From Vampirovibrio chlorellavorus (GTDB taxonomy: Bacteria; Cyanobacteriota; Vampirovibrionia; Vampirovibrionales; Vampirovibrionaceae), in contig LAPX01000007.1 in NCBI GenBank assembly GCA_001858525.1, positions 434,001 to 498,000 of the forward strand: a DNA stretch of 64,000 nucleotides. The letters run 5' to 3'. Below the pieces are notes generated by a model. The model saw only the letters and a list, made by a program, of their open reading frames with translations. It was not told where the DNA came from and did not search any database. A program made the position numbers and the translations under genes. This document shows, in pieces, positions 22,332 through 56,118 of the stretch (the stretch's first letter is position 1; every line of letters starts with the position of its first letter).

Positions 22332-22388
22332 TTGACATGCCCCCCGGTTTGATTCATAACTATGCTTGTAATCGATCTCAGACCTCAT
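22332..22388 (+). promoter_or_regulatory. Upstream region of tRNA-Val
   Basis: A perfect -35 (TTGACA at 22332-22337) stands about 50 bases before the tRNA. The -10 is poor (CATAAC or TAACTA, 17-19 bases downstream). Confidence 0.4.
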
Positions 22389-23949
22389 GGGCGGTTGGCG
22401 CAGTTGGTAGCGCATCACATTGACATTGTGGAGGTCGCTGGTTCGAGTCCAGTACCGCCCACCATTCTTTACACTCAGGCAAATTGACGATCTTATCGAA
22501 GGGTTTATTCAGCTCATAGCGTACATTTTGACCCTCTAGCCACAAGTTCGAAAACACCAAACTCAGAATCTTTCTTTTTTGTTCTACTTTCGAACTTTTA
22601 AATGTACTGGCCGCTCTTGAAATCACCTGAAGCAAAGTCACAAAGCTGTTTCTGAACTCTGAATCGTCCTTTGTGTAATCCATAATTTGATGACCCAAGC
22701 TTTGTCGTTCAGCCTGTAGTTGAAGCCTTTTTTTGTCGTAGGTTTCTTGGGTAATACTCTGGTCGAGGTAGAGGTTTAACAATCGATCCAATCGTATATC
22801 TATTTCGCTGAACTGGTTTTGTAATTGCTGCGCCATGGCCAGCATATCGGAACGCTGATCATCGTACTGACTTTTCAACCGTTCCTGAATTTTCATAATC
22901 AGGCTTTCGGGGATGTTAATCCGGCTCAAAACATGTTCTACAACTTCAAGGGCAACCTCTTCCCGAATACGCCCGGCCTGACAAACGTCTTTACCTTTGG
23001 CTTTAGTGCAAGCCAAGTAAACATACCGGCCCTTTTTAAGGTCTGAAACAACCTGGCACCCACAATCAGCGCAACGCATCAGCCCCCGAAAAATAAACGG
23101 CTTTTTAGCCCGCTGCTGTATCCTGATTTCAGGCGGATTTGAAACAGATGTACCGGCAATGATGGCCTGACAGCGGTCAAAAAGTGCTTTATCGATCAGC
23201 TTAGGGTAAGCATGAGGATAACGCTGCCCCCGCACCATCATTTCCCCGTAATAAAACGGGTTTTTGAGGATATTGGCCATACTGGCCTTGGTAATCGTTT
23301 TACCGGTTCTAGTAGAGGTTAACCCCCAATGCCCGGTTAGCTTGGCCAGTTCGCCCATTGAAACCGTGCCCGTAGCGTATTCCTGAAATAGGCGTTTCAC
23401 CAGAAAAGCCCGCTTGCTGTCCAAAGTTACCGTGGCTTTCTTACTCTCTGGATCCCGCACATTCAAGTAACCCACTGGCACATTACCAACCACTTCGCCT
23501 TTGCTCAGCTTAAACTCAATGGCTTTATTGACGTGTTGCCGAATCTGCCCCACGTAGAGCTTGGCCCCTAAAATTGAAAAATCAAACTGAAGCTGTTCCG
23601 TCCAGGGCGTATTTTTGTTGATGATGAGCCGCTCATTGTAAGCATGGATTTCCAGCTTGTCCTGCTCAATCAGGGTTTCAATCAGGCCATATTCTTTAAA
23701 CCCCCGAAGCAAGCGATCAATGGAATGTACCAGCAACACCGTGCGCTTCTTTTGTTTTTCGATGAAGCTCAGGGCTTTGAAGAACTGCTTTCTGTCCCCA
23801 CGGGTTGAAGATTCAACCACTCGAAAGGTTTCCAGAATATCCAGACTCTTTTCCCGGCAATAATCCAACAACTTGGCCTCCTGAGCATCCAGAGAGACCC
23901 CGTCCTCCTGCCCTACGCTGGAAACACGGGTAAAAATCACGGCGTTCAT
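22378..23949 (-). CDS. Large serine recombinase
   Basis: 523 aa from the ATG at 23949, which has AGGA eight bases upstream; ATGs at 23955 and 23997 are alternatives. The N-terminal resolvase domain carries the nucleophile Ser10 in FTRVSSVGQ, with LLVHSIDRLLRG as the catalytic Arg region. A recombinase domain follows (SMANILKNPFYYGEM), then a zinc ribbon (MRCADCGCQV ... CTKAKGKDVCQ) and a coiled coil. It catalyses integration and excision. The last ~28 codons lie antisense to tRNA-Val and give the tell-tale peptide LDSNQRPPQCQC, so the natural C-terminus in the unintegrated form may differ. Confidence 0.93.
   Translation of the reverse strand: MNAVIFTRVSSVGQEDGVSLDAQEAKLLDYCREKSLDILETFRVVESSTRGDRKQFFKALSFIEKQKKRTVLLVHSIDRLLRGFKEYGLIETLIEQDKLEIHAYNERLIINKNTPWTEQLQFDFSILGAKLYVGQIRQHVNKAIEFKLSKGEVVGNVPVGYLNVRDPESKKATVTLDSKRAFLVKRLFQEYATGTVSMGELAKLTGHWGLTSTRTGKTITKASMANILKNPFYYGEMMVRGQRYPHAYPKLIDKALFDRCQAIIAGTSVSNPPEIRIQQRAKKPFIFRGLMRCADCGCQVVSDLKKGRYVYLACTKAKGKDVCQAGRIREEVALEVVEHVLSRINIPESLIMKIQERLKSQYDDQRSDMLAMAQQLQNQFSEIDIRLDRLLNLYLDQSITQETYDKKRLQLQAERQSLGHQIMDYTKDDSEFRNSFVTLLQVISRAASTFKSSKVEQKRKILSLVFSNLWLEGQNVRYELNKPFDKIVNLPECKEWWAVLDSNQRPPQCQCDALPTAPTAHEV
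22389..22464 (+). tRNA. tRNA-Val (anticodon GAC)
   Basis: 76 bases with encoded CCA. The acceptor stem GGGCGGT/ACCGCCC is perfect; the D arm has GCGC/GCGC, the anticodon stem TCACA/TGTGG holds the loop TTGACAT, and the T arm contains GGTTCGAGTCC. The 3' side faces the mobile element that starts directly downstream, and the recombinase gene is read antisense through the whole tRNA. Confidence 0.95.
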
Positions 23950-23971
23950 AGTCATGTTCCTATGGTCATTG

Positions 23972-24060
23972 ACACAAAATTGGTATTTTGAGGGCACCTA
24001 CTAAAATCATACACACAAAATCAGTTTTTATTGTAGATGATAAACCCCTCATACACAAAA
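23972..24060. repeat. Three ACACAAAA motifs spaced 40-41 bp
   Basis: ACACAAAA occurs at 23972-23979, 24013-24020 and 24053-24060, directly upstream of the recombinase gene in an AT-rich gap. The even spacing (about four helical turns) suggests binding sites for an autoregulator or for the recombinase. Function is inferred only from position. Confidence 0.4.
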
Positions 24061-24087
24061 AGGATCGATACTCTGTACATAGAAGCC

Positions 24088-25242
24088 TCATTCATTACCC
24101 TCAGAGGCTTTCAGGGTATTTGTATTAGCCAAAAGCTCATAGAGCGAATCATTCAGGTAGAAGTTTTCTTTCCATATCTTATGTTTACTGAGCAAGCCGA
24201 TTTCAATCAGTGCCTCCAGGTACTTGGTAGCGGTGTTTCGGTGTACCTGCAACTCATTCATGATAAATTCCACCTTGGTGTAAGGATGGCAAAACAGGTT
24301 ATTCAGCAAATCCTGACTGTAGATCTTGGGCAATTCACTTCTCAGGCGGTGCTTATGGGACTGCATCAAATCACGAATCTCTAAAATCAAGCGGGTTGTT
24401 TGAATAGAAGTTGTCTCGATACCATCCAGCATGTATAGCAACCAAGGCTCCCAATCCGTGTGAGAGCGGGTGGACTGCAACAAGTGATAATAACTAGCCT
24501 TATTCTGGTTAATGTATCTGGACAGGTACAACACCGGCATATCCAATAAACCCTGCTTTACAAGATACAAGATATTGATAATCCTGCCGGTACGGCCGTT
24601 TCCATCATAGAACGGGTGGATACTCTCAAACTGGTGATGAATAACCGCCATTTTAACCAGGGGATCCCAATCACACAGGCTATCGTCGTTAATAAATTGC
24701 TCCAGATTGCCCATCAGTCGAACGATCTCATTGGCATCCTGAGGCGGCGTATAGACCACTTGGCCCGTCTGTTCATTTTTAAGGGCGGTTCCCGGCACTT
24801 TACGGAATCCCGCCGAATTTTCCTCAAGAATAGCCTGCATGTCCAGGATCATGGTATTGGTCAGCAAGCCAGTTTTTTGAACCAGGGTAAAGCCGGTACG
24901 CAAGGCCGTGGCGTAATGATGAACCTCTTTAGCCCCCAGCGTTTTAAATTTATTTTTGGCGGCATCGCTCTGATAGAGGTCATCCTGAGTGGTAATGATG
25001 TTTTCAATGGCGGAACTATCCTTGGCCTCTTGCAGGGACAGGGTGTTAATCAGGATAGCCTCATTGGGAATAAGCGCCGCTACCCCCTTGAGTTCCGCCA
25101 GCGCCCGATGCGCCTTGGCCAGCTTCTTTAAAACTGGCTTGGTTTCCAGCTCGCCCGTAAAGGGGAGCATTTCCAAAGGCTTTGGCGTGGGCACGGCTCC
25201 AGCCATGGCCGCTTGCGTGGATGAGTCTTTAGGCGTTGCCAT
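24088..25242 (-). CDS. Fic-domain protein (AMP-transferase type)
   Basis: 384 aa. The Fic core HPFYDGNGRTGR (residues 209-220) matches HxFx(D/E)GNGRxxR, with the catalytic His. An N-terminal inhibitory motif SSAIEN (76-81) fits (S/T)xxxE(G/N), placing it in class II, where the helix blocks ATP until displaced. The C-terminus is a winged-helix-like segment (NELQVHRNTATKYLEALIEI). Fic enzymes attach AMP or related groups to hydroxyls of target proteins. No separate antitoxin exists, as expected for class II. It overlaps the upstream gene by 14 bases and is part of the element's cargo. Confidence 0.93.
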   Translation of the reverse strand: MATPKDSSTQAAMAGAVPTPKPLEMLPFTGELETKPVLKKLAKAHRALAELKGVAALIPNEAILINTLSLQEAKDSSAIENIITTQDDLYQSDAAKNKFKTLGAKEVHHYATALRTGFTLVQKTGLLTNTMILDMQAILEENSAGFRKVPGTALKNEQTGQVVYTPPQDANEIVRLMGNLEQFINDDSLCDWDPLVKMAVIHHQFESIHPFYDGNGRTGRIINILYLVKQGLLDMPVLYLSRYINQNKASYYHLLQSTRSHTDWEPWLLYMLDGIETTSIQTTRLILEIRDLMQSHKHRLRSELPKIYSQDLLNNLFCHPYTKVEFIMNELQVHRNTATKYLEALIEIGLLSKHKIWKENFYLNDSLYELLANTNTLKASEGNE

Positions 25243-25612
25243 GGGATTCCTCTTCCAAGCCTTGCGGTAAAAGACATTCAGCCATAAAAGCTTGGGCCTC
25301 TTCTTCCGTCATGACCTCACTATCGGCATAGGCAAAAGGTTCCTCCAAAATGGGTTGCCCAATGCCCTGTTTTAATCGCTCAATTTCCGTTTGGAACAAC
25401 GCCACAGGATCCGCTCCCGGCGGCTCAAAGCACAGATCCACCATCAAAACCGGGTGGGCGCTTCTTCCGTAAATTTGGCCTTTGGAATTGCGATAGACTT
25501 CAAACAGGCCATACATGGGCGCACCGTTTCTTTCGGGGGCAAACTCATCCCCCTCCCAATCGTGGGTGGTAAATTTAAAAATCTGGTATTCGGTTGGCGG
25601 GTCACAGGTCAT
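25229..25612 (-). CDS. Hypothetical protein between restriction enzyme and Fic
   Basis: 127 aa, not recognised. The N-terminal half is beta-like with aromatic residues (EYQIFKFTTHDWEGDEFAPE, GAPMYGLFEVYRN); the C-terminal half is acidic and helical (MTEEEAQAFMAECLL). Its start overlaps the stop of the restriction-modification gene by four bases and its end overlaps fic by 14 bases, so all three are translated together. An accessory role in either system is possible but not shown. Confidence 0.7.
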   Translation of the reverse strand: MTCDPPTEYQIFKFTTHDWEGDEFAPERNGAPMYGLFEVYRNSKGQIYGRSAHPVLMVDLCFEPPGADPVALFQTEIERLKQGIGQPILEEPFAYADSEVMTEEEAQAFMAECLLPQGLEEESHGNA

Positions 25613-28344
25613 ACTTTTTTCCTTTTGGCGCTTTTCGGTTTGCTATCCGCCAGCAAGGGGGCTTGCTCCTGTTCATACAGCGCTTGGTTCAGGTGGAACA
25701 GATCTTCGTTGTAGTTTTTATCGGGGTTATATTTCCAGCCGTACACCTTGCACACGGACTCATCCAGCTTTTTGTGCAATTGGCTCAGCTTACTGGCTGG
25801 CTCATGGAAAAAAGCGTTATACAGCTTGGTAATACCCCATTGCCGGGCTTTCATTTCATCCATGCGGTAATTTTCCAGCTCGGTCATAATGTCTCGCACC
25901 GGCTGTTTTAGTTTTTCAGGCGCATCCCACAGAAAAGGGAAGGTTTCAAAACAAGTAGTATTGGTATAACGAATCCGATCTTCCAAAGTGGAGCATTGCG
26001 CCTTCACCCAATCCCGGTGCAGTTTGGAGTTTAAAGCCCCAAGGATATAGAAATCATCCGAGGCAACTACCATATTATCGACACCGGGTAACATTTTCTG
26101 GTGAGGGTAAACAACAAAGGTTTTCCACTTAGAAACACGAGGTATTGCAAAAGAATACTGCAAAGGAGATAACGCCTTCCTTAAGGCAGGCCGTTTTTCA
26201 CCAAACTGCCACCACTTCTCTGCTGTTGTCTTTCGTCTAACCTGTTCTCTAACAGGCTTGACCAAGTTCTTAACATGCTCGTAAGGTTCCAGGTATAAAG
26301 ATGCCTGCTCTAGCGAAAGATCATTAAAGTCAATAATCCAACGATCAGACATTAAATCTGGGGTATCAACCAAATTCCGGCCCATCGAAAAAAGTTTCAA
26401 TACCTCTTTATTTTGAATCCGTTTTTCTATCCAATCCTTTGCTAATCTATCTTCAATATAAAAGCCCTTCCCTACCGGCACAACACCTTGGAAGCAGATA
26501 TTTTGATTGCAGAGAAGTCTTTTTGCTGATGTTACATCGACTTCCGCTTTTAAACTGCTGTTTATTTCAGTAACTGGCATTTCATCTAAAAATAATTTTT
26601 TAGGCTTTGTTTTTTGCCAGTTAACAATACTGACATGAACCTTTGCTTCTCCCGACCAAGGTTGGGAAGAAATAGCGTCTGATAAATAGCCTTGATTTTC
26701 CGTAATAAACTGCAAGGTGGCTGTTCGGGTTTCATTTTGAGATATTGAGTTTGTACCAACCAATCCAATCCGCTCAGCCTCTTGATCATGCGCTTTTCTA
26801 AACCAATAGGCGCAATAATCAGCGCTCTTAGGAAATTCTGAGGCGGGGTAAAGCTGCCAAATTTTTTCTATATACTCATCACTAAAGCCTGACTCTCTCA
26901 GTTGTCTACTGCCAATAAAAGGCGGGTTACCAATAATGGCATCCACTTGGGGCCAGTCGGTAAACAAGGCATCGGCGCAAATAATATTTTGGTTCAGGTT
27001 GTCCAGGGGTAATACATCTTCTGGCAGGTTAAACTTATTCACCGCCACTTTGCGGCCAATTTCCAGCGTTAAGCGGGCCAGTTCCACGGCAAAGGGCTTA
27101 ATTTCAAGGCCGTAAAACTGCATGGGGCTTACCATGGAAATTTGCGCCCCCTGCAAGTCCTTAGCGCTTTTGGCGTGTTCCGCAATCAAGTCCATTAATT
27201 GCTTTTCCAGGCGCTTCATTTCCTGAAAGGCAATGTACAAAAAGTTTCCGCTGCCACAGGCCGGGTCTAATACTTTGTACTTGCGCAAATCGGTCAGGCA
27301 TTTTTTCAACTTAGTAATATTGGTTCCGGCTTGCTCAATGCGCTCATCCCAATAGCGCACAATGGTGGGGTTCACTATTTTGTATATATCCACCTCACTG
27401 GTAAAGTGGCTCCCTTGCACGTGGCCAATGGCCCGCTCAAAAATCGTTCCGAAAATGGAAGGGCGCACCTTTTCCCAGCGGTAATCGTAGCCCAGCCGGT
27501 ACAGGGCCTCCAATTCGCTTTTTTCCAGCTCTACCGGGGTAATGGTACTAAACAGGCCACCGTTAAAATACCGAACCCCTTTAAAGCGTCCACCGTTGGC
27601 TTCTTTCTTGCTGTTCATCTGGCTAAATAGGCCATGTAACAGGTTATAGCTATCTTGCGGCCGCTCCGTGCAATCTTGTAGCAAGTCCGTAAACAGGTTA
27701 TCCGGCAACAGGCCAATATCTTCCGCAAACAGGCACAACACGCATTGCAACACAAAGCGCTGAATATCCTCTTCCGTGGCTTTGTAATGCTCTCGCCGGG
27801 CCAAAATGGAGCGGTATAAGCCACTAATTTCAGCGGCGGCTCCCTCGGTCACATCGACTAAATTCTGATTAAAGCGGGGCTTTTGGCCAAGCATAAACAG
27901 CAAGGCTTCCGGGTGTTTGCTCAACTCATCCAGCGTCAGGACTTGAACCGGGGTATCGACCTGAATGTTAAAGTCATAAATCCAAAACTCATCAAAATTG
28001 CAGAGAATCCCCACCGCTGGCTTGGGAACGCAATACGTCCAGTAGGTTAAAAGTTGGTTGTAATGCTCATTCAGGGAGGAACCCCGCTGTTTCATCTCAA
28101 TAATGGCCACACCCGGAAATAGGCAATCTAAAAAGCCGGTATTGCCGCCTTTACTACTGCTTTTTTGAGCAAATTCAAAGGTTCCCTTTGCCTCCAATAC
28201 ACCGCCATAGCCAAAGCATTGAAAAAAGCGATCCAAAAATACTTGGGCCTCACCCCGCTCCCGGCCATGGCAATTGGCCTTCACCCAATCCCGAAAGGCC
28301 TCCAGGCTGGTCACTATCTTATCCTGAGTCATTGTCATGGTCAT
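25609..28344 (-). CDS. MmeI-like single-chain restriction-modification enzyme
   Basis: 911 aa, close to MmeI (919 aa). The N-terminal nuclease motif D73-x9-E83-x-K85 (LDCLFPGVAIIEMK) has exactly the MmeI spacing. A central N6-adenine methyltransferase has motif I LDPACGSGNFLYIAF and motif IV IIGNPPF. The C-terminal third should recognise the DNA target. Such type IIL/IIG enzymes cut and methylate with one polypeptide, so self-protection is by hemimethylation by the same enzyme. In this element it can act as a defence or stabilisation gene. All catalytic motifs look intact. Confidence 0.9.
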   Translation of the reverse strand: MTMTMTQDKIVTSLEAFRDWVKANCHGRERGEAQVFLDRFFQCFGYGGVLEAKGTFEFAQKSSSKGGNTGFLDCLFPGVAIIEMKQRGSSLNEHYNQLLTYWTYCVPKPAVGILCNFDEFWIYDFNIQVDTPVQVLTLDELSKHPEALLFMLGQKPRFNQNLVDVTEGAAAEISGLYRSILARREHYKATEEDIQRFVLQCVLCLFAEDIGLLPDNLFTDLLQDCTERPQDSYNLLHGLFSQMNSKKEANGGRFKGVRYFNGGLFSTITPVELEKSELEALYRLGYDYRWEKVRPSIFGTIFERAIGHVQGSHFTSEVDIYKIVNPTIVRYWDERIEQAGTNITKLKKCLTDLRKYKVLDPACGSGNFLYIAFQEMKRLEKQLMDLIAEHAKSAKDLQGAQISMVSPMQFYGLEIKPFAVELARLTLEIGRKVAVNKFNLPEDVLPLDNLNQNIICADALFTDWPQVDAIIGNPPFIGSRQLRESGFSDEYIEKIWQLYPASEFPKSADYCAYWFRKAHDQEAERIGLVGTNSISQNETRTATLQFITENQGYLSDAISSQPWSGEAKVHVSIVNWQKTKPKKLFLDEMPVTEINSSLKAEVDVTSAKRLLCNQNICFQGVVPVGKGFYIEDRLAKDWIEKRIQNKEVLKLFSMGRNLVDTPDLMSDRWIIDFNDLSLEQASLYLEPYEHVKNLVKPVREQVRRKTTAEKWWQFGEKRPALRKALSPLQYSFAIPRVSKWKTFVVYPHQKMLPGVDNMVVASDDFYILGALNSKLHRDWVKAQCSTLEDRIRYTNTTCFETFPFLWDAPEKLKQPVRDIMTELENYRMDEMKARQWGITKLYNAFFHEPASKLSQLHKKLDESVCKVYGWKYNPDKNYNEDLFHLNQALYEQEQAPLLADSKPKSAKRKKV

Positions 28345-28350
28345 TGTTTA

Positions 28351-29517
28351 CTACTTTCCTTTCGCCTCAAGCATTGCCAGCCTGAGCGGTTGAAACTGGC
28401 ATAAGGCCCGTTCGATTTGCTCAAAACCCAAAACCGCCACGGATGAAGCCAGCTTCAACTCCTGTACATCTTTCCGCAAGCGGCTCAAACTGCGATCGGT
28501 GCTTTTCCACAGGCTTTTAAAGCCCGCCCAGCCGATCTCGTCTATTATAGTATAGGCGGCTACCAGTTTTAAAATCTGGTTATCCTTGGCATTGGGCTTG
28601 GCGATTAATACCTGTTGGTACAAATCAACAGTACTTTTACCAGCGGATGCCGTTATAATGGGCACACTGGCCTGGTAAGGTTTCCAGTAATGCCATAAAA
28701 CCTGTTGAGACAGGCTTTCACTGAACAAGGCTTCAAACTTTAAAGCCGTTCCGGCCATGGCCTTGGGCTGCAAGCGCTCCATGACTTCCCGAATTTTCCG
28801 GCGGCTCCCAAAGCGGGCCTCCATGCGAAGCACCTGCTTTTTTCGGTCAAGGTCGGTCTGTTTCAGTAAGCTCTGTTGAATGGTTACATCATCCTCATAG
28901 GCTCGCTTGGGGCTTTTTTGCGCTTTCTCCAGGTCTTTCACCTTGTCATAAAAGGCCAGTTCAAAATCATTCGAATGAATTTTATAGAGATGGCCCCCAT
29001 TGCGGTAGTCGGTTTTGGCCACATCCAGCCAGCCGTTAATATTGACCTTAGCCAGCGTATGCAACACGCTACTACAGGCCATTCCTTCGCCCAGCAAAAT
29101 ATTTTTACTGTAATGTACCGCACTGGTTTCAGCGTATTTCAGGTCATGAAAAGCCGTTATCACCCCTTGACAGGCCATTCTGTCGCTTAGGGTATCTAAA
29201 ACCCGCTCAAAATCGGCGGTGGTCAACTCATCAAAATTATTACCGTATATCAGCTTGGGTAAAGAACATTCAACCCGCAATGTAATGCTATAACGCCCAC
29301 CCGAATCAATCCGCCCATTCAGGGTCATGCGGGGCATGTATAAACCTTGGCTAGCATCCGCCTTGGTGGGATTGCAAACCGCCTTTAAATGGCTTTCCGA
29401 ACGACTGAGGTTGTTCCCAAGGCCCAAAATCGTTTTGGCGTTGGGTTTAAACTTTTCCGGCTTAATCACCCTAAATTGATCGGCCTGAAGGGTCAAAACG
29501 ATAGTATCTATCATCAT
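28351..29517 (-). CDS. Phage/plasmid replication protein, gene II/X family
   Basis: 388 aa. It resembles filamentous-phage gene II protein: the start MIDTIVLTLQ, the segment SLPKLIYGNNFDELTTADFE, FELAFYDKVKDLEKA and the basic/acidic strand VLRMEARFGSRRKIREV fit that family in order. Gene II proteins nick one strand at the origin and start rolling-circle replication. Its presence means the element is, or was, a replicon such as a plasmid or inovirus-like phage. The N-terminus overlaps the SpoVG-like gene by 47 bases. No morphogenesis genes (gene I, coat proteins) were seen. Confidence 0.78.
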   Translation of the reverse strand: MMIDTIVLTLQADQFRVIKPEKFKPNAKTILGLGNNLSRSESHLKAVCNPTKADASQGLYMPRMTLNGRIDSGGRYSITLRVECSLPKLIYGNNFDELTTADFERVLDTLSDRMACQGVITAFHDLKYAETSAVHYSKNILLGEGMACSSVLHTLAKVNINGWLDVAKTDYRNGGHLYKIHSNDFELAFYDKVKDLEKAQKSPKRAYEDDVTIQQSLLKQTDLDRKKQVLRMEARFGSRRKIREVMERLQPKAMAGTALKFEALFSESLSQQVLWHYWKPYQASVPIITASAGKSTVDLYQQVLIAKPNAKDNQILKLVAAYTIIDEIGWAGFKSLWKSTDRSLSRLRKDVQELKLASSVAVLGFEQIERALCQFQPLRLAMLEAKGK

Positions 29518-48452: not shown

Positions 48453-49865
48453 TTGGATTGGTTAAATAACACCTCAGAATTAATGATGGTGGCCATACTG
48501 GTCACGGTGGTTTCTGCTGCCATTATCTTCATTTTGCTGCGCAAGCCCCCGGAAAAATCACTGACTTCAGACAGTGCGGGACCTGCTTCCACCCCTGGCA
48601 ACCCTGCCCCACCTTCCCCCAAGGACCACAACAGCCTGATTGAACACTTAAACCAGGGCAACGCCTTCGTTCGACAGTTTCAGTACGAACAAGCCCTGTT
48701 CCACTTCAAGGAAGCTATCAAACTCAAGCCGGAAGATGGCTCGATTCACTTTAAAGTGGGGCGTTTACATGTACAGCGGGAAGATTTTAAGAATGCCCTG
48801 GCCGCTTTTAAGACCTCACTCGAGCTAAATCCCAAGCAGGTGGAAGCCCATTACGAAATGGCCCGCATTTATCAACACCTGCACAGTACGGAAAAAGCCA
48901 ATAACGCCCTGGGAAAGGCCCTTAAAATCAATCCCACTCACACAGAGTCCCTCAAGCTAAAAATAAAGCTGCTGGAGCAGGAAAATCGTTTACAGGAAGC
49001 GCTGGAGCCCATTCAAAAACTGATTGAAAGCAGCTCGAACCCCACCAAATATCAGGAACTGCTGGCAGAATACCAGATGAAACTGGGCGACTACTCCAAA
49101 GCCATTGCCTCTCTGGAAACCCTGATCAGTCAAAATCCCCATGATCAGCTGTATTATCTGGGGAAAGTGGGACAAGTCCACTTCGATCAGGGTGAATACG
49201 ATAAGGCCATTGAACAGTTCAAGCGCATTTTGCAAGAGCAAGGCACCGCCCGGATGGACGCCGCCTTTACCCGAGCCATTAAAAACCAGATGGCCGCCGC
49301 CTTGTGTAACGAAGGGGTCAAACGTTATCAGGCTCACGACCCACAAGGGGCCATTCAGCACTATCAGGACGCCCTAGTCTATGATGATAGCAACGCCGAC
49401 ATCCACTACAACCTGGGGAAAGCACTGATAGAGGCAAAGGATAGCGGCAAGGCCATGCGTCATTTTGAACTGGCCCTGTCCATCAACGCCAACGATGCCA
49501 GTTGCCACTATGAACTGGCCGTTTTACAGGATGAAAAGGGGCTGGTACAAGAAGCCTTGAACCATTACCAAAAAGCCCTGGAACTGGAACCCAATAACGC
49601 CCAAGCCTGCTTTGGTCTGGGCACCTTGTACGGGGTGGACGGCAATCTGGAGAAGGCCATCCAGATGCTGAGCACAGCCATCCGTATCAATCCCAACTAT
49701 ACCGATGCCTTTTACAATCTGGCCGTGGCCCTGGAACGCAAGAAAGACATTAACAAGGCCATTAAGTTCTATAAAAAGGTGCTCAGTCTGGATAAAAACC
49801 ATGAAAAAGCCAAGAGCAATCTGGCCCACATCCAGCACACCCATAAACAAGGGCTTCGTCGCTAA
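48453..49865 (+). CDS. Membrane-anchored TPR-repeat protein
   Basis: 470 aa with a TTG start at 48453. One N-terminal membrane helix (LMMVAILVTVVSAAIIFILL) is followed by a Pro/Ser linker and about ten tetratricopeptide repeats from residue ~65 (QYEQALFHFKEAIKLKPEDG, DFKNALAAFKTSLELNPKQV, DYSKAIASLETLISQNPHDQ, NINKAI-like end). TPR arrays bind other proteins, so this is a scaffold on the inner membrane. The partner is unknown; the four membrane proteins that follow are candidates only by position. Confidence 0.88.
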   Translation: MDWLNNTSELMMVAILVTVVSAAIIFILLRKPPEKSLTSDSAGPASTPGNPAPPSPKDHNSLIEHLNQGNAFVRQFQYEQALFHFKEAIKLKPEDGSIHFKVGRLHVQREDFKNALAAFKTSLELNPKQVEAHYEMARIYQHLHSTEKANNALGKALKINPTHTESLKLKIKLLEQENRLQEALEPIQKLIESSSNPTKYQELLAEYQMKLGDYSKAIASLETLISQNPHDQLYYLGKVGQVHFDQGEYDKAIEQFKRILQEQGTARMDAAFTRAIKNQMAAALCNEGVKRYQAHDPQGAIQHYQDALVYDDSNADIHYNLGKALIEAKDSGKAMRHFELALSINANDASCHYELAVLQDEKGLVQEALNHYQKALELEPNNAQACFGLGTLYGVDGNLEKAIQMLSTAIRINPNYTDAFYNLAVALERKKDINKAIKFYKKVLSLDKNHEKAKSNLAHIQHTHKQGLRR

Positions 49866-49883: not shown

Positions 49884-51047
49884 CTAGCGAATCAACGGAT
49901 TCACCGAGCGCTGGGCCAAGGACTGGGAGACAAACGGGTTAAAGGCAGGCTGAAAAGGAATCGCCTGCTGACGGAAAGTCGGCGCTAACGCGGGGGCTGG
50001 CAATACTGGGGATTTTTCCACCACCGGCGAGGGAGCCTGAGCTTTCATGGCCTGCTTTTTCTCAAACTGCTTTTTATTCCAAACCCCGTTAATCCACATG
50101 GGGAACCAGCCAATGGCGCCAATCAGCACGGCAAAACTCAGCATATCGGAAGGCAGGCGGCGCACCTTGGCGTAATTTTCCAAGGCCCCTTTGGCTTGTC
50201 CTTGCAAGTTGGTGGCAATTTTCAGGATTTGCTTGGAACCGTCTTTTTTCCCAAGATCCAGGACAGCCTTAATACTATCGTCCACATTCTTAAATTTCTC
50301 AAAAGTCTTTTTGGCGGCGTCCACGGCCGCTTTTTCATCAATGGCCACATCCGGCTTGGGAGTGTGGGCTTTCACAAAGTCTTTCACGCTCTGCTTCAGC
50401 TTGTTTAAGGCGTCACCGACCGAGGCCTTCTCGTATTCCTTCTTCAGCTCAACATTGTTTAAGCCCTCAAAGGCCTTTTGCAGGCCACCATCATTCAATT
50501 GGTTAATGGCTTTTTCCAAGCCCTCGCCGTTGCCTTCTTTCACCACTTGCCACAAGGCTTGGGGGTTATCAATCTTGTAATTCCGAAAATCTGAATAACT
50601 CAGAACGCCGCCTTCTTTGGGCTTGACCAGATTGACCCCGGTGCGGCTTTGCGTCAGCTTGCTGACTCCATATACCAAGGGGGCCAAGGCAAACACAAAC
50701 AGGGTGATAGCGGTCAAATCGCGGCGCAGCACATCGCCCATTTCCCGGAAGTCGTTGTTTTCCTTGCCCCGCTGATAAGCCCGATACAAACGGGGGCCTA
50801 CGGTGCCGGGGTACAGCAACAACAACAGCGGCAGACGGGGCGGTTCCGCCAACAAGGCTTTAAAACGGCCCACGGAGACGCTGGTGTATTGAGAGAAGTC
50901 GGATTTCAACTGGTTCCCGATAAACCGGCTGACATTTTCTCCCAACTTGGGAGTCAATGCTTTTTCAGTATTTTTCGGCAAGTCATACGCCCACTGGGCG
51001 GCCTTGTAAGCAAAAGGCTCACTGGCACCAAAACGAATCTGGGTCAT
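49884..51047 (-). CDS. Membrane protein A of four-gene related set
   Basis: 387 aa, no known domain recognised. Layout: an N-terminal FG motif (IRFGASE), two hydrophobic segments around residues 72-133 (LPLLLLLYPGTVG and AITLFVFALAPLVYGV) with PRLYRAYQRG between them, a long charged helical middle, a third hydrophobic segment (MLSFAVLIGAIGWFPMWING) and a Pro-rich tail (SPVLPAPALAPTF). The same order recurs in the three neighbours at 51044, 52784 and 54259. Its ATG overlaps the end of the upstream gene by four bases with AAGGGG as Shine-Dalgarno. The function is unknown. Confidence 0.75.
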   Translation of the reverse strand: MTQIRFGASEPFAYKAAQWAYDLPKNTEKALTPKLGENVSRFIGNQLKSDFSQYTSVSVGRFKALLAEPPRLPLLLLLYPGTVGPRLYRAYQRGKENNDFREMGDVLRRDLTAITLFVFALAPLVYGVSKLTQSRTGVNLVKPKEGGVLSYSDFRNYKIDNPQALWQVVKEGNGEGLEKAINQLNDGGLQKAFEGLNNVELKKEYEKASVGDALNKLKQSVKDFVKAHTPKPDVAIDEKAAVDAAKKTFEKFKNVDDSIKAVLDLGKKDGSKQILKIATNLQGQAKGALENYAKVRRLPSDMLSFAVLIGAIGWFPMWINGVWNKKQFEKKQAMKAQAPSPVVEKSPVLPAPALAPTFRQQAIPFQPAFNPFVSQSLAQRSVNPLIR

Positions 51048-52540
51048 GCTTGCCCCCCTTCAGTCCACGGCCCCTGAACGGGGACCGCATAGCCGGGACG
51101 TTGCAGGCCAAACGGAGCGAATCGAGCGTTGTTCAAGCTACCCGGAGCCGCCGCCGCAAAGGCGTTGGATTGTCCCCAGCGTGAAAAAGCCGGCTCTCCA
51201 CCAAAGGGCAAACCGGCTTGAAAGGGCATCGCTGAAGGCTGCTGAGAACCAGTGCGCTTATTATTGTCATGATTCTTACGGGCAGCGGCCTCTTCCTTCA
51301 ACAGACGAGTGGCCTGATAAGTGCCGTGATTTTGAGCCCAAAAGGCCAGCTTCACCAGATAAGCCGCAGTCAGAGAGGTCACCCCAACACCCATCAACCA
51401 CTTTTTACTCATCAATTGCTTCCAGGTTTTGCCAGCGACATCACCCACCGCGGTTTGGCCTTCTTTCTCCAGATTGGCCCACAGTTTGTTCACGAATCCA
51501 CCAACCCGGGAGACATCGTTGCGAATGTCCGCAAAATTGCGTTGCTTCACAAACTCTGCTTTCAGCGTATCCGGGCGATAGGTGAACCAGGCTTTACCGG
51601 TGTTGTTCAAAGGCGCCTCATCCTGAATGACTTTGTCCAACTGGGCATAGGCGTTAATTCGATATTCGCGGTTGAATTCCCACAGCTTATCTTTCAAAGC
51701 CTTAAAGGCGTTTTCCGCTTCAGAGGACGCCTTCTCTTTGCCCAAGCGTTTAAAACCATTAGACATACGCTTGAAGCCATTTTCCTTGGCAAAGTCCACA
51801 GACTCATCCACCTCAGCATTCACCCAGGTTTCAATCAGTCCCCGAATTTCTTGTGCCCTGGCCTTAGCCTTATTAGAGGTTTTAGCATCAACCTCACTAC
51901 CTTTTATTAGATTTATTAGACCATTGTTAGCGACTTGCTCAATATCCGCAAATCCCTCACGCAGATACCTTTTCGCCTCATCAATCAAATCGGATTTCTT
52001 ATTAAACGTCTTTTTCCCCAAACGAGCCTGCAACCCCTCACCCAAGCCCTTAATACTCTCTGCGGGCAACTCTACAGCCGGATTCAAGGTGACCCGGTTC
52101 AACATGTAAGCCACAGCGGGCACTGCCAATAAACCAGGCCCAGTGGCAATTTCTCGCTTGGTCCCCTCGTAAAAATTCACCCAGTTCAAACCCTTCCAGT
52201 TCCCGGACAGCCAGGCCCCCACCTGCTCCCGGAAAGGCTTGTTTTTCACCGCCGGATCCTGACTGGGATCGTAGGAAACCTTGCCCTCTTGCAAGGAGGT
52301 CCACACCCGGGGCATCCACATGGCAATCATGTCCTGGGCCAAAAAGCCCCACAGAAAGACCTCGGTAATATTTTGAAAGGTGTTCACTGACCCGTTCAGG
52401 ATGGCACCGCCAAACTTCACGCCCGAAGCGGACCCGCTTTGGGTTGCAGGAGCCATTTTCCTGTCAGCGGCTTTTGGGCGCGCAGCAGGGGGCAGGTGAT
52501 GGGGAGGTTTACAGCCTCCATGTCCAACCGGTTGGGTCAT
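51044..52540 (-). CDS. Membrane protein B of four-gene related set
   Basis: 498 aa, function unknown. After a disordered N-terminus (a start at 52456 is also possible) comes VKFGGAILNG, then VFLWGFLAQDMIAMWMPRVW, a second hydrophobic stretch (GPGLLAVPAVAYML), a long charged helical region of about 230 residues, a third hydrophobic segment (WLMGVGVTSLTAAYLVKLAF) and a Gly/Pro/Phe-rich tail (AMPFQAGLPFGGEPAFSRWG). This repeats the plan of protein A with a larger middle part. It is the first gene of the minus-strand pair and is transcribed away from the plus-strand pair at 52784. Confidence 0.75.
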   Translation of the reverse strand: MTQPVGHGGCKPPHHLPPAARPKAADRKMAPATQSGSASGVKFGGAILNGSVNTFQNITEVFLWGFLAQDMIAMWMPRVWTSLQEGKVSYDPSQDPAVKNKPFREQVGAWLSGNWKGLNWVNFYEGTKREIATGPGLLAVPAVAYMLNRVTLNPAVELPAESIKGLGEGLQARLGKKTFNKKSDLIDEAKRYLREGFADIEQVANNGLINLIKGSEVDAKTSNKAKARAQEIRGLIETWVNAEVDESVDFAKENGFKRMSNGFKRLGKEKASSEAENAFKALKDKLWEFNREYRINAYAQLDKVIQDEAPLNNTGKAWFTYRPDTLKAEFVKQRNFADIRNDVSRVGGFVNKLWANLEKEGQTAVGDVAGKTWKQLMSKKWLMGVGVTSLTAAYLVKLAFWAQNHGTYQATRLLKEEAAARKNHDNNKRTGSQQPSAMPFQAGLPFGGEPAFSRWGQSNAFAAAAPGSLNNARFAPFGLQRPGYAVPVQGPWTEGGQA

Positions 52541-52783
52541 CGTTGAGAATTACACATCCACTTGGGAAAATACTGACTTAGAAATCCGAGGTGAGTCTAT
52601 AAAAGAGAGTCAACATGATCTGATGCTAGCTTGTTAAGAAATATGAACGAGGTTTTTTCGGTGGATGAACTGGTTTAATCTTAATCATTCAAGGGATGCA
52701 AACCCTATAAACGTAACACTTATTAACAAACTAACACTCGCTCTCCTGCTTGGTTTTAATACAAGCGGATACCTTTCCCCTAA

Positions 52784-54262
52784 ATGTACGTAAGACTGAT
52801 GGTAATGGAAGCAAGCCCACTTAAGCCACATTCCTATTCCAGCCGCCAGTACCGAAAACCCAGCCAACCGTCCTCTCCCAAATTCTCGGGTCTGGTTGAT
52901 GGCTTTTCCAATCTGATCGGTGTTGTTGACAGCAATCGGCTACTAGAGCTGATGGCCTCCGACGGGATTGGCATGATTGTGCCTCGCACAGTCCTGGCTT
53001 ACCACAAACGTGGTGCCGATGACGGGCGGGAAACCTTCCTACGGGAATTTTCCGGACTCGTGGGAAATGTACTCATCACTGGCTGGTTTGGCTGGGGCAT
53101 GCTGAAGGTGCTGGGCAACCGGGTCAATGCCTATAACCCGCATGGCCTCCCACTGGATGCCCATATTAACGCTGCCAACCTGAACGCTTTTAACCACTTG
53201 TACCAGTCCGCACTGGCAGACAAGCTGAACCCGGGCGAAGCTCGGACGACCTTTGTGAAAAAGGTTCTGGAATCGCTGGTTTCAGACAACCCGCAGTTCA
53301 TGTGGGGCGCCCAGCGAGAAAGCCTGCAAAAAATTGAAGACCCTGAGCAACAAATCCGCTTTTTGAAAGCAAATTTAACCAAAATATTGGGTCCACAGGC
53401 GGCCGAGGAAGAAATCGAGAAGCTGGGTGAAACGCTCACCGACAGCAAGCTCGACGCGTTGGGCAAAACGCTGGAAGCCCGCAACGGAAAACTCTCCCCG
53501 GATGCCTGCAAGGATCTAGCCCGTTTCTTTGAACCCAAGGGAGCTGTCCCTGATAAGCCTGATTGGGGAACCCTGAAACTGGATGAGGCCGCTAAACAGC
53601 GACTTCGGCAATTTGAAACCGACCCCGCATACAGCGACCTGGCCCAAAAATTGAAAGACGAGACCTTCAAGCAAAAAATGCTTCAGCGGACCCGGCTCAA
53701 GCTCTATCAGGACTCTAAACAGAATACGGAAACCTTTGTGGAACTGGTGGACAAAAAAGCGCTGGATTATGGGGTCACTGGCACGGTTCATATTACCGAT
53801 GGCAAAGAGCGCCTGTCCGGCTTCCAGAACCGTAAAAATGTCCTGCGGGAACTAAAGTATTATCTGGAGCACTATGTGGACCGGGCTGCCCACGAATCGA
53901 AGGGTAACCTGACGGAACTGGAAAACAAACTGTTTGGACGGGCCAAATCCGGCTTTTTACATCAACTATTGCCCAAAGCGGAAGACGGCTTGGTGACCGC
54001 GGCCCTGAAACACAAACATGCCCTCACCTGGATCCCCTTGACCTTATCCTTAAGCGCGGCGGGGCTGTTCACGTTCTACAACCAGTACATAACGGCTCAA
54101 AAACACGGTGGCCGCATGTTCTTCCCGGGCGAAGGCAATTTACAGGGCTTGGCCAGCCAACAGAAATCCGCCGTGTTGCCGCCCCCGGCGCCGCCTCATC
54201 ACAACTTCCGCCCAACTGCCGGATTTCAGCAGACTCCCGTCAGTGGAGGGATTTTGGCATGA
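52784..54262 (+). CDS. Membrane protein C of four-gene related set
   Basis: 492 aa (ATGs at 52784, 52799 and 52805 are all possible; none has a clear Shine-Dalgarno). Layout: disordered start, PKFSGLVDGFSNLIGV, the motif VPRTVLAYHKRGADDGRETF followed by LREFSGLVGNVLITGWFGWG, a charged helical middle of about 320 residues, a late membrane segment (WIPLTLSLSAAGLFTFYNQY) and a Pro-rich tail (AVLPPPAPPHHNFRP). PRTVLAYHKRG parallels PRLYRAYQRG of protein A. It is divergent from B across 243 bases and is coupled to the downstream gene D. Confidence 0.75.
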   Translation: MYVRLMVMEASPLKPHSYSSRQYRKPSQPSSPKFSGLVDGFSNLIGVVDSNRLLELMASDGIGMIVPRTVLAYHKRGADDGRETFLREFSGLVGNVLITGWFGWGMLKVLGNRVNAYNPHGLPLDAHINAANLNAFNHLYQSALADKLNPGEARTTFVKKVLESLVSDNPQFMWGAQRESLQKIEDPEQQIRFLKANLTKILGPQAAEEEIEKLGETLTDSKLDALGKTLEARNGKLSPDACKDLARFFEPKGAVPDKPDWGTLKLDEAAKQRLRQFETDPAYSDLAQKLKDETFKQKMLQRTRLKLYQDSKQNTETFVELVDKKALDYGVTGTVHITDGKERLSGFQNRKNVLRELKYYLEHYVDRAAHESKGNLTELENKLFGRAKSGFLHQLLPKAEDGLVTAALKHKHALTWIPLTLSLSAAGLFTFYNQYITAQKHGGRMFFPGEGNLQGLASQQKSAVLPPPAPPHHNFRPTAGFQQTPVSGGILA

Positions 54263-55110
54263 TCCAGCAGCCTAGCCCTCGCATTCATAATAATGCTCCC
54301 GCCACTTTAATCAGCCAGCACCCAACGGGCACCCGAAAAGCAGCCCATTCTGCGGTTCAATTTGGCAGTGCCGCACCAACGGGTCTGAAGCAAGTGCCAC
54401 CCAAAATCAGCAAGGCCTTGCAGTACTTTGACTTCCGGGATTTGGGTTTTTCCCACGTGGGGCAAATCCAGTTGGTATACGCCGGTTGCATTTTGTGGCG
54501 ACTCATTGCGGCCAACGAGCGGCGTAAAGCCAGCCCCTCCCAAAGCTGGAACGAGATCCGGGAAAGCGCCTTGCGGGATTCCGTGGGTTACGCCTTCTGG
54601 TTTTTTGGCACACCAACGCTTCAGCGCCTTTACCTGAAAGTTTTTCCGTCCAAGGAAATGGAAAAAGCCCTGATTCAACCCACCCGAAACAATGAAACCG
54701 GAGCTTGGGCCACCCTTAAAAAGTGGAATCCCATTTCCGGGTACGCCATCCCAACCAGTGAACAGGTTCGGGACATGAAAACCCAGGCCATAGCGCGTCT
54801 TAAAACTGCCGAAATCGAAAAAAGCAGCGAAAATTTCCAACGCGTGGAAAAGTATTACAAACGCTTGCTACACCATCGCAATATCGCCACCGGCATGGGA
54901 CTGCTCTCCACCATCGGGTTGTTGGGCATCGGCATTAACTACCTCAACTTCTACCTCACCCAGAAAAACGTGAAGGAGCGGGAAATCGCCCTTCTGAAGC
55001 CGCCCTTCCCACGTCCACCGGCCTTGCCCAGATTTCAGCCCATTGTATCGGCTCCCCCTGTATCAACGAATCTGGCGCCCAACAGCCTACCCCTTCAGCA
55101 ACGGGGCTAG
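54259..55110 (+). CDS. Membrane protein D of four-gene related set
   Basis: 283 aa, function unknown. It has AVQFGSAAP near the N-terminus, LVYAGCILWRLIAANERRKA then ESALRDSVGYAFWFFGTPTL (compare A: LRRDLTAITLFVFALAP), a shorter charged middle, the late membrane segment GLLSTIGLLGIGINYLNFYL and a Pro-rich tail (LLKPPFPRPPALPRFQPI). It is the shortest of the four. ATGA overlap with gene C and GGAGGG eight bases before the ATG show coupled translation. Confidence 0.75.
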   Translation: MIQQPSPRIHNNAPATLISQHPTGTRKAAHSAVQFGSAAPTGLKQVPPKISKALQYFDFRDLGFSHVGQIQLVYAGCILWRLIAANERRKASPSQSWNEIRESALRDSVGYAFWFFGTPTLQRLYLKVFPSKEMEKALIQPTRNNETGAWATLKKWNPISGYAIPTSEQVRDMKTQAIARLKTAEIEKSSENFQRVEKYYKRLLHHRNIATGMGLLSTIGLLGIGINYLNFYLTQKNVKEREIALLKPPFPRPPALPRFQPIVSAPPVSTNLAPNSLPLQQRG

Positions 55111-55143: not shown

Positions 55144-56118
55144 TTAATGCCCAGTGCCCGATTTAGGCTTACTGCCCGAGGGCGGGGCAGTTTTCCCCTG
55201 AAAAATTTTCTGCAAAGGTCCAGGGGAAGCTTCTCCCCCAAACAGGCCGGATAACTTTTCCCCCAAGGGCACCTTCTTGGCGTCCGGGCGTTCCACCGAG
55301 ACCGCGTACAAACGGGCCAGCGCTTTTCGCAATTCCTCACCGTTGGCCATTTTTTCCAGCTTGCCATCCTGCACCAGAGAGATAGAACCCGTTTCCTCGG
55401 AAATGACAATGCAACGACTGTCAGAAATTTCAGTCAGGCCAATGGCCGCCCGGTGCCGAGTGCCGTACTGCCAGCTCAGCTTGGGATCTTCCGTTAAAGG
55501 CAGCAATACGCCTGCGGCCACCACCCGGTTATTGGCCCCAATCAAGACCGCCCCATCATGCAAGGGGGTGTTGTGATGAAAAATGGTCAGCATCAACTCG
55601 GTGCTCAACTTGGCGTCCAGGGCCGTGCCCATCTCCAGATAATCGCCACCGTGGCTGTTGGGCGATTCCAGCACGATTAAAGCTCCACGCTTGGCCTTGC
55701 TTAAAAAACGAACCGTCTCGGTCAATTCGTTAATCAGGTATTCCGCCTTGGACTCTTCCGGAGACTGGGTCACCGGACTGCCGCCAAACAATTCGCCTTG
55801 CCCTAAAAACAACAGCATCCGGCGCAATTCCGGCTGAAAAATAACAATCAGTCCGATAAAGAGAATTTGAATTGTGGCGGCAAAAATATTTTCCAGCATC
55901 GGCATGTGGAAAATATTGGCCAGCCACCACATGCCCACAAACAGCATCAGCATAATAAACAGCCCTTTCAGGAGCTGCTCAGCCTGGCTTTTGCGGATAA
56001 AGCGAACGTAAACGTAATAGATAATGCCCGTGAGGATGGCAATTTGAGCCAACACCTTCACCACAGGCATAACGGCCTGTTGGTCAGGGTCCCACTGCTG
56101 GATTATCCATTCCATCAT
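55144..56118 (-). CDS. cdaA: Diadenylate cyclase (membrane-anchored, CdaA type)
   Basis: 324 aa. Two to three N-terminal membrane helices (residues ~19-95) precede a DAC domain with both catalytic motifs: DGA at 188-190 (NTPLHDGAVLIG) and RHR at 221-223 (YGTRHRAAIGLTE). It makes c-di-AMP from two ATP; c-di-AMP controls potassium and osmotic balance in many bacteria. The C-terminus is extended and Pro/Lys rich (KTAPPSGSKPKSG). The usual partner CdaR is not adjacent. It is convergent with membrane protein D, 33 bases apart. Confidence 0.95.
   Translation of the reverse strand: MMEWIIQQWDPDQQAVMPVVKVLAQIAILTGIIYYVYVRFIRKSQAEQLLKGLFIMLMLFVGMWWLANIFHMPMLENIFAATIQILFIGLIVIFQPELRRMLLFLGQGELFGGSPVTQSPEESKAEYLINELTETVRFLSKAKRGALIVLESPNSHGGDYLEMGTALDAKLSTELMLTIFHHNTPLHDGAVLIGANNRVVAAGVLLPLTEDPKLSWQYGTRHRAAIGLTEISDSRCIVISEETGSISLVQDGKLEKMANGEELRKALARLYAVSVERPDAKKVPLGEKLSGLFGGEASPGPLQKIFQGKTAPPSGSKPKSGTGH

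Follow-up and report, generated by a model that had tools for sequence, protein, structure and literature searches.

The window analysed here, a stretch of 64,000 nucleotides corresponding to G000:C26:434001-498000, comes from a 3.03 Mb source genome (G000) whose near relatives in the genome collection are Vampirovibrio and Vampirovibrionales MAGs. Between positions 49884 and 55110 of the window lie four ORFs arranged as two divergent pairs. On the minus strand, gene B (51044..52540, 498 aa) is the upstream partner of gene A (49884..51047, 387 aa); on the plus strand, gene C (52784..54262, 492 aa) is followed by gene D (54259..55110, 283 aa). The members of each pair share a 4-bp ATGA overlap (B/A at 51044-51047, C/D at 54259-54262) and the pairs are separated by a 243 bp intergenic region (52541..52783), so that the coordinates, lengths and overlaps given in an earlier note on this DNA were all reproduced. 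With dN/dS values of 0.08-0.20 against two relatives, both congeners, A, B, C and D are real genes under purifying selection. A promoter-like match is present on the plus strand at 52543-52571, within the B-C gap, at a level not above chance for that region; promoter and terminator scans gave matches no commoner than in shuffled sequence, and no Rfam family was found in the 44-60 kb interval of the window, which includes the gap. The TPR gene described earlier as lying next to the four is present at 48453-49865, but its position beside them reflects more extensive synteny in one family and is lost elsewhere. On the other side, a CdaA-like (diadenylate cyclase) gene at 55144-56118 is convergent to D and is kept in f1 and in the f2 genome G010.

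The four proteins follow a common plan, in which a mostly disordered leader of 50-100 residues carrying an FxG motif is followed by a hydrophobic hairpin, then by a soluble domain made of helices and, after a late membrane helix, by a Pro-rich tail. We refer to B and C as N-type and to A and D as C-type modules. In A, the FxG leader precedes a hairpin at about residues 66-130, a soluble helical part, a late membrane segment at about 301-320 and the Pro-rich tail. The AlphaFold2 model of C has hairpin helices at 52-76 and 78-111, a soluble helical domain at about 130-384 (modelled at a pLDDT of about 85-90), a late helix at 403-440 and a disordered tail. That of D, with helices at 66-91 and 97-128 and a long late helix at 191-245, has the same module order with a much shorter middle; overall the models of C and D are of moderate confidence (pLDDT 69 and 64, respectively). 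Family-averaged hydropathy bears out the two early and one late hydrophobic segments previously ascribed to all four proteins in the case of A, B and C, whereas the second segment of D is weak by hydropathy and is a helix in the model. Between the two hairpin helices lies a conserved cluster of Arg or Pro-Arg, Glu and Arg-Glu/Asp, whose invariant or near-invariant residues are R86, R93, R101, E102, R109 and D110 in A; D70, P77, R78, E125, R129 and E130 in B; P67, R68, R76, E83, R87 and E88 in C; and R81, E99, E102, R106 and D107 in D. The hydrophobic segments suggest that the proteins are located in the envelope, probably in the inner membrane. N- and C-type modules have a similar weak charge bias, which does not fix their topology; with no opposite bias, antiparallel pairing of the two module types finds no support from this source.

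Searches of A-D against Pfam, NCBIfam, PHROGs, PADLOC and PDB sequences returned nothing above thresholds, in keeping with the earlier impression that they contain no known domain: none of the four has a Pfam domain. The nearest likeness is that of the helical middle of C (residues 157-375) to DUF445 (PF04286), which at 14.9 bits falls below the gathering threshold of 33.8 and is matched weakly by two of 16 C-family members, most having no match. Foldseek searches of the PDB with the models of C and D, both of moderate confidence, gave no match at E <= 0.001 (best E 0.94 for C and 0.24 for D), and C found nothing among viral models. Anti-phage defence models in PADLOC gave only two weak, sub-significant matches, and tblastn detected neither C in phages nor an f6 fusion (see below) in plasmids. 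The Fluc and SMR families were not among the Pfam and NCBIfam families listed at E values up to 1-10, and no catalytic, nucleotide-binding or transporter signature was found in the libraries searched.

Pairwise identity among A-D is low overall, and the evidence that they are related comes from profile-profile comparison with hhalign. Using alignments of 16-22 relatives, A matched D with a probability of 97.3% (E 2.7e-11) and B matched C with 95.5% (E 1.3e-8), with little signal between the B/C and A/D groups. With enlarged families the corresponding values were 97.6% for A and D and 97.9% for B and C, and a link of 91.3% appeared between C and A, spanning residues 52-115 of C and 70-135 of A. 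This is the region of the PR/RG-like motif that had been proposed as common to A and C, and the alignment upholds it. Taken singly, the remaining cross-group links are weak (C with D 55%, B with A 7%, B with D 3.5%), whilst some 40 control comparisons involving FliP, FliR, CdaA, the TPR protein, AtpB and other neighbours all gave 0.6% or less. In addition, N-type profiles match C-type proteins of other genomes directly (HMMER, E down to 2.1e-9). Kinship, far above that of unrelated membrane-protein controls, is thus supported, and A, B, C and D most likely all descend from one module. They are not equal paralogues, as the earlier note might have implied, since B is closest to C and A to D; judged from the profiles, the pattern is that of two paralogous operons, B-A and C-D, each comprising an N-type followed by a C-type gene.

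The FG or FSG motif noted earlier near the N-terminus is present in all four proteins (IRFGAS, VKFGGA, PKFSGL and VQFGSA). Among split modules, 52 of 74 carry an FG motif ahead of their first membrane segment, where shuffling gives about 17, and in the N-terminal halves of f6 fusions the figure is 20 of 21, against 2.6 in shuffles. The motif is not confined to the family. Across the proteins of the f6 genome G020 at large it occurs in excess at residues 10-30 (20 seen as against about 5 expected from the rate of FG motifs beyond residue 100), and leaders such as MEIKAINALSFNG sit on proteins outside the A-D family; no such enrichment at residues 10-30 was found in 400 kb of G000 or in f4 and f8 control genomes. 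As unrelated proteins of the sister lineage f6 also carry it, FxG supports a shared leader rather than homology and does not by itself indicate kinship. The f6 leader is often of the form M-K/E-I/V..., rich in N/Q and followed by xFxG, and is possibly a lineage-specific targeting motif. ORFs outside the family with such a short N-terminal leader were seen in f6 at L181:2528, L183:16542, L185:16317, L189:2963 and L191:5217, and at positions 107508, 259852, 336071, 345976 and 360319 of G020:C11.

Gene coupling is conserved in relatives: using first-start ORFs, the genes overlap in 21 of 22 BA pairs and in all 16 CD pairs. The BA and CD pairs are separate from each other in G005, G008 and G014, indicating that the conserved unit is the pair and not the divergent layout. 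In f6 genomes the N- and C-type modules are found within single ORFs of about 515-755 aa, one of them a BA-type fusion, usually accompanied by two tandem CD-type fusions. G000 itself has a third locus, also fused (G000:C26:189450-191234, 594 aa), which came to light when further paralogues were sought by searching genomes and scanning 400 kb, as the earlier note had proposed. One CD locus is fused in the f2 genome G010; its counterpart is the fusion L206. An alignment of L206 with separate C and D proteins misplaced the late segments and was left out of structure prediction. Split BA genes, adjoining or overlapping, occur in other f6 genera and in f10, f11 and f48, where both halves have an N-terminus of their own and, in most cases, a separate FxG leader. 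Fusion as the ancestral state was dropped on account of these pairs, and since both lineages have BA as split pairs, the split state is likelier to be ancestral for BA. Of 21 f6 fusions, 19 have an FxG motif where the modules join, which, if the split state is ancestral, would be a relic of the start of the second gene.

The fusions differ in how their two halves are joined. Among those examined (L180, L181, L182, L184, L186, L188, L190, L192, L194, L195 and L197-L199), an extra hydrophobic segment lies between the modules in 20/20 CD/E-type fusions and in 0/6 BA-type fusions, giving seven hydrophobic segments per fusion in the former as against six in the latter; the L206 fusion also lacks it. 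This inconsistency implies either that not every hairpin crosses the membrane or that orientation differs between paralogues.

Of 386 genomes sampled from the phylum, 172 match a fused profile; the matches listed all belong to f1, f6, f10 or f11, and most of these genomes are of 1.5-2.3 Mb. Non-matching genomes listed, which leave aside 194 further non-matching genomes, include oxygenic cyanobacteria and genomes of f5, f8 and two genera of f6. The B-type profile matches 185 of 289 genomes of the class, in f1, f2, f3, f6, f10, f11 and f48, with no match among the listed genomes of f4, f5, f7, f8 and f9. In the fused-profile count, where copies per genome were scored up to three, most matching f6 genomes have at least three. 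The family f6 probably represents the Gastranaerophilaceae, which are likely to be gut commensals. On this sampling, homologues appear near-universal in the Gastranaerophilales-Vampirovibrionales lineages, with none detected in the remaining orders sampled from the class or in oxygenic cyanobacteria. In a phylogenetic tree, the BA sequences, split genes and f6 fusions alike, form one clade and the CD/E/F6 sequences another, each with a support of 100, indicating that the operon duplication predates separation of the two lineages. The A-D proteins appear to form a clade-specific superfamily of core membrane proteins that is undescribed in the libraries searched.

How might these proteins work? 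We give about an even chance to the proposal that they form a clade-specific, core, heterodimeric scaffold or assembly unit of the inner membrane, built from a duplicated module. A single membrane module would have been duplicated to give an ancient two-gene operon, which would in turn have been duplicated to give the B-A and C-D copies. The N-type protein, encoded upstream, and its C-type partner, encoded downstream, would then form an obligate 1:1 membrane heterodimer whose stoichiometry is maintained through overlapping stop and start codons or through fusion of the two into a single chain. That exactly N- and C-type modules are coupled and fused is strong evidence for a 1:1 complex, and the partners are thus expected to bind each other. 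The hetero-oligomer suggested in the earlier note is supported in this respect within pairs, by coupling and natural fusions, but not as a four-protein unit, given the genomes in which BA and CD lie apart. The complex itself would have no enzymatic role and would serve the cell envelope as a scaffold or assembly platform, its helical domains and flexible tails acting as docking surfaces, with BA and CD as two specialised, possibly cooperating, versions of one unit. The lack of an enzyme or transporter signature in the searches, together with helical soluble domains and a flexible leader and tail, makes a scaffold the most economical inference. Core genes of small genomes are often those for enzymes or transporters, and this counts against it.

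The chief rival to the scaffold reading is a paired transporter or channel following the logic of Fluc or the paired SMR proteins, in which homologous modules enclose a path lined by the Arg and Glu/Asp residues of the hairpin. The conserved charged residues in the hydrophobic hairpin could equally mark such a path, invariant as they are and lying beside hydrophobic helices, and A-D share with these systems the encoding of homologous modules either by paired genes or within one fused ORF. Fluc in particular presents a like series of single genes, tandem gene pairs and single-ORF fusions with a linker helix (PMC3755343), to which the extra segment of every CD/E-type fusion could be compared. 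That segment is, however, absent from all six BA-type fusions and from the G010-type CD fusion. Unlike the small transporters, moreover, A-D modules have three hydrophobic segments, a disordered leader, long disordered tails and soluble domains of 85 to about 300 residues; they show no sequence or fold similarity that we could find, the PDB included, and N- and C-type modules lack the opposite charge bias. We consider a paired transporter unlikely.

Two further readings fare less well. A part in predation or secretion is suggested by the proposed, predation-linked type IV secretion system and the attachment pad of unknown composition in Vampirovibrio (PMC4451040), to either of which proteins resembling membrane scaffolds might contribute. 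Yet the family is near-universal in f6, the putative gut commensals, and so cannot be predation-specific; no secretion genes were recognised adjoining the f6 loci, which are flanked by ATP synthase and housekeeping genes, and we find the idea improbable. That A-D are merely four neighbours with independent functions, alike only as low-complexity membrane proteins, could draw on their low pairwise identity and on the loss of the divergent arrangement in three genomes. It is strongly disfavoured, and in our view highly improbable, in the face of profile alignments far above the controls, the direct HMMER matches between module types, and coupling and fusions kept for exactly these partners.

Returning to the scaffold, a bolder version, which we regard as decidedly doubtful, is that this duplicated-module superfamily forms the core of a structure in the envelope that defines the Gastranaerophilales-Vampirovibrionales, with the FxG leader, present also on unrelated proteins of these bacteria, as a signal specific to the lineage for docking to that structure or sorting to it. 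Kept in nearly all sampled f6 genomes and in the related Vampirovibrio, yet nameless in the libraries searched, the family looks like part of an undescribed core biology of the non-photosynthetic cyanobacteria. That one module exists both in coupled gene pairs and in fused form, the latter sometimes with a linker segment and sometimes lacking it, also makes the family a test case for the evolution of duplicated membrane proteins.

Two side observations may be recorded. Adjoining the f6 BA fusion are tandem small membrane proteins, c29 and c30 (L183:6540-7804 and equivalents), with an RP...ET...RE pattern; these were considered as relatives of the A-D modules and dropped, hhalign giving 0.4% or less. 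Elsewhere in the window, positions 22378-29517 are likely to be a mobile island, its ORFs assigned by eye only as recombinase-like (22378-23997), Fic-like (24088-25242) and a large DNA-methyltransferase-like protein with an NPPF motif (25609-28344).
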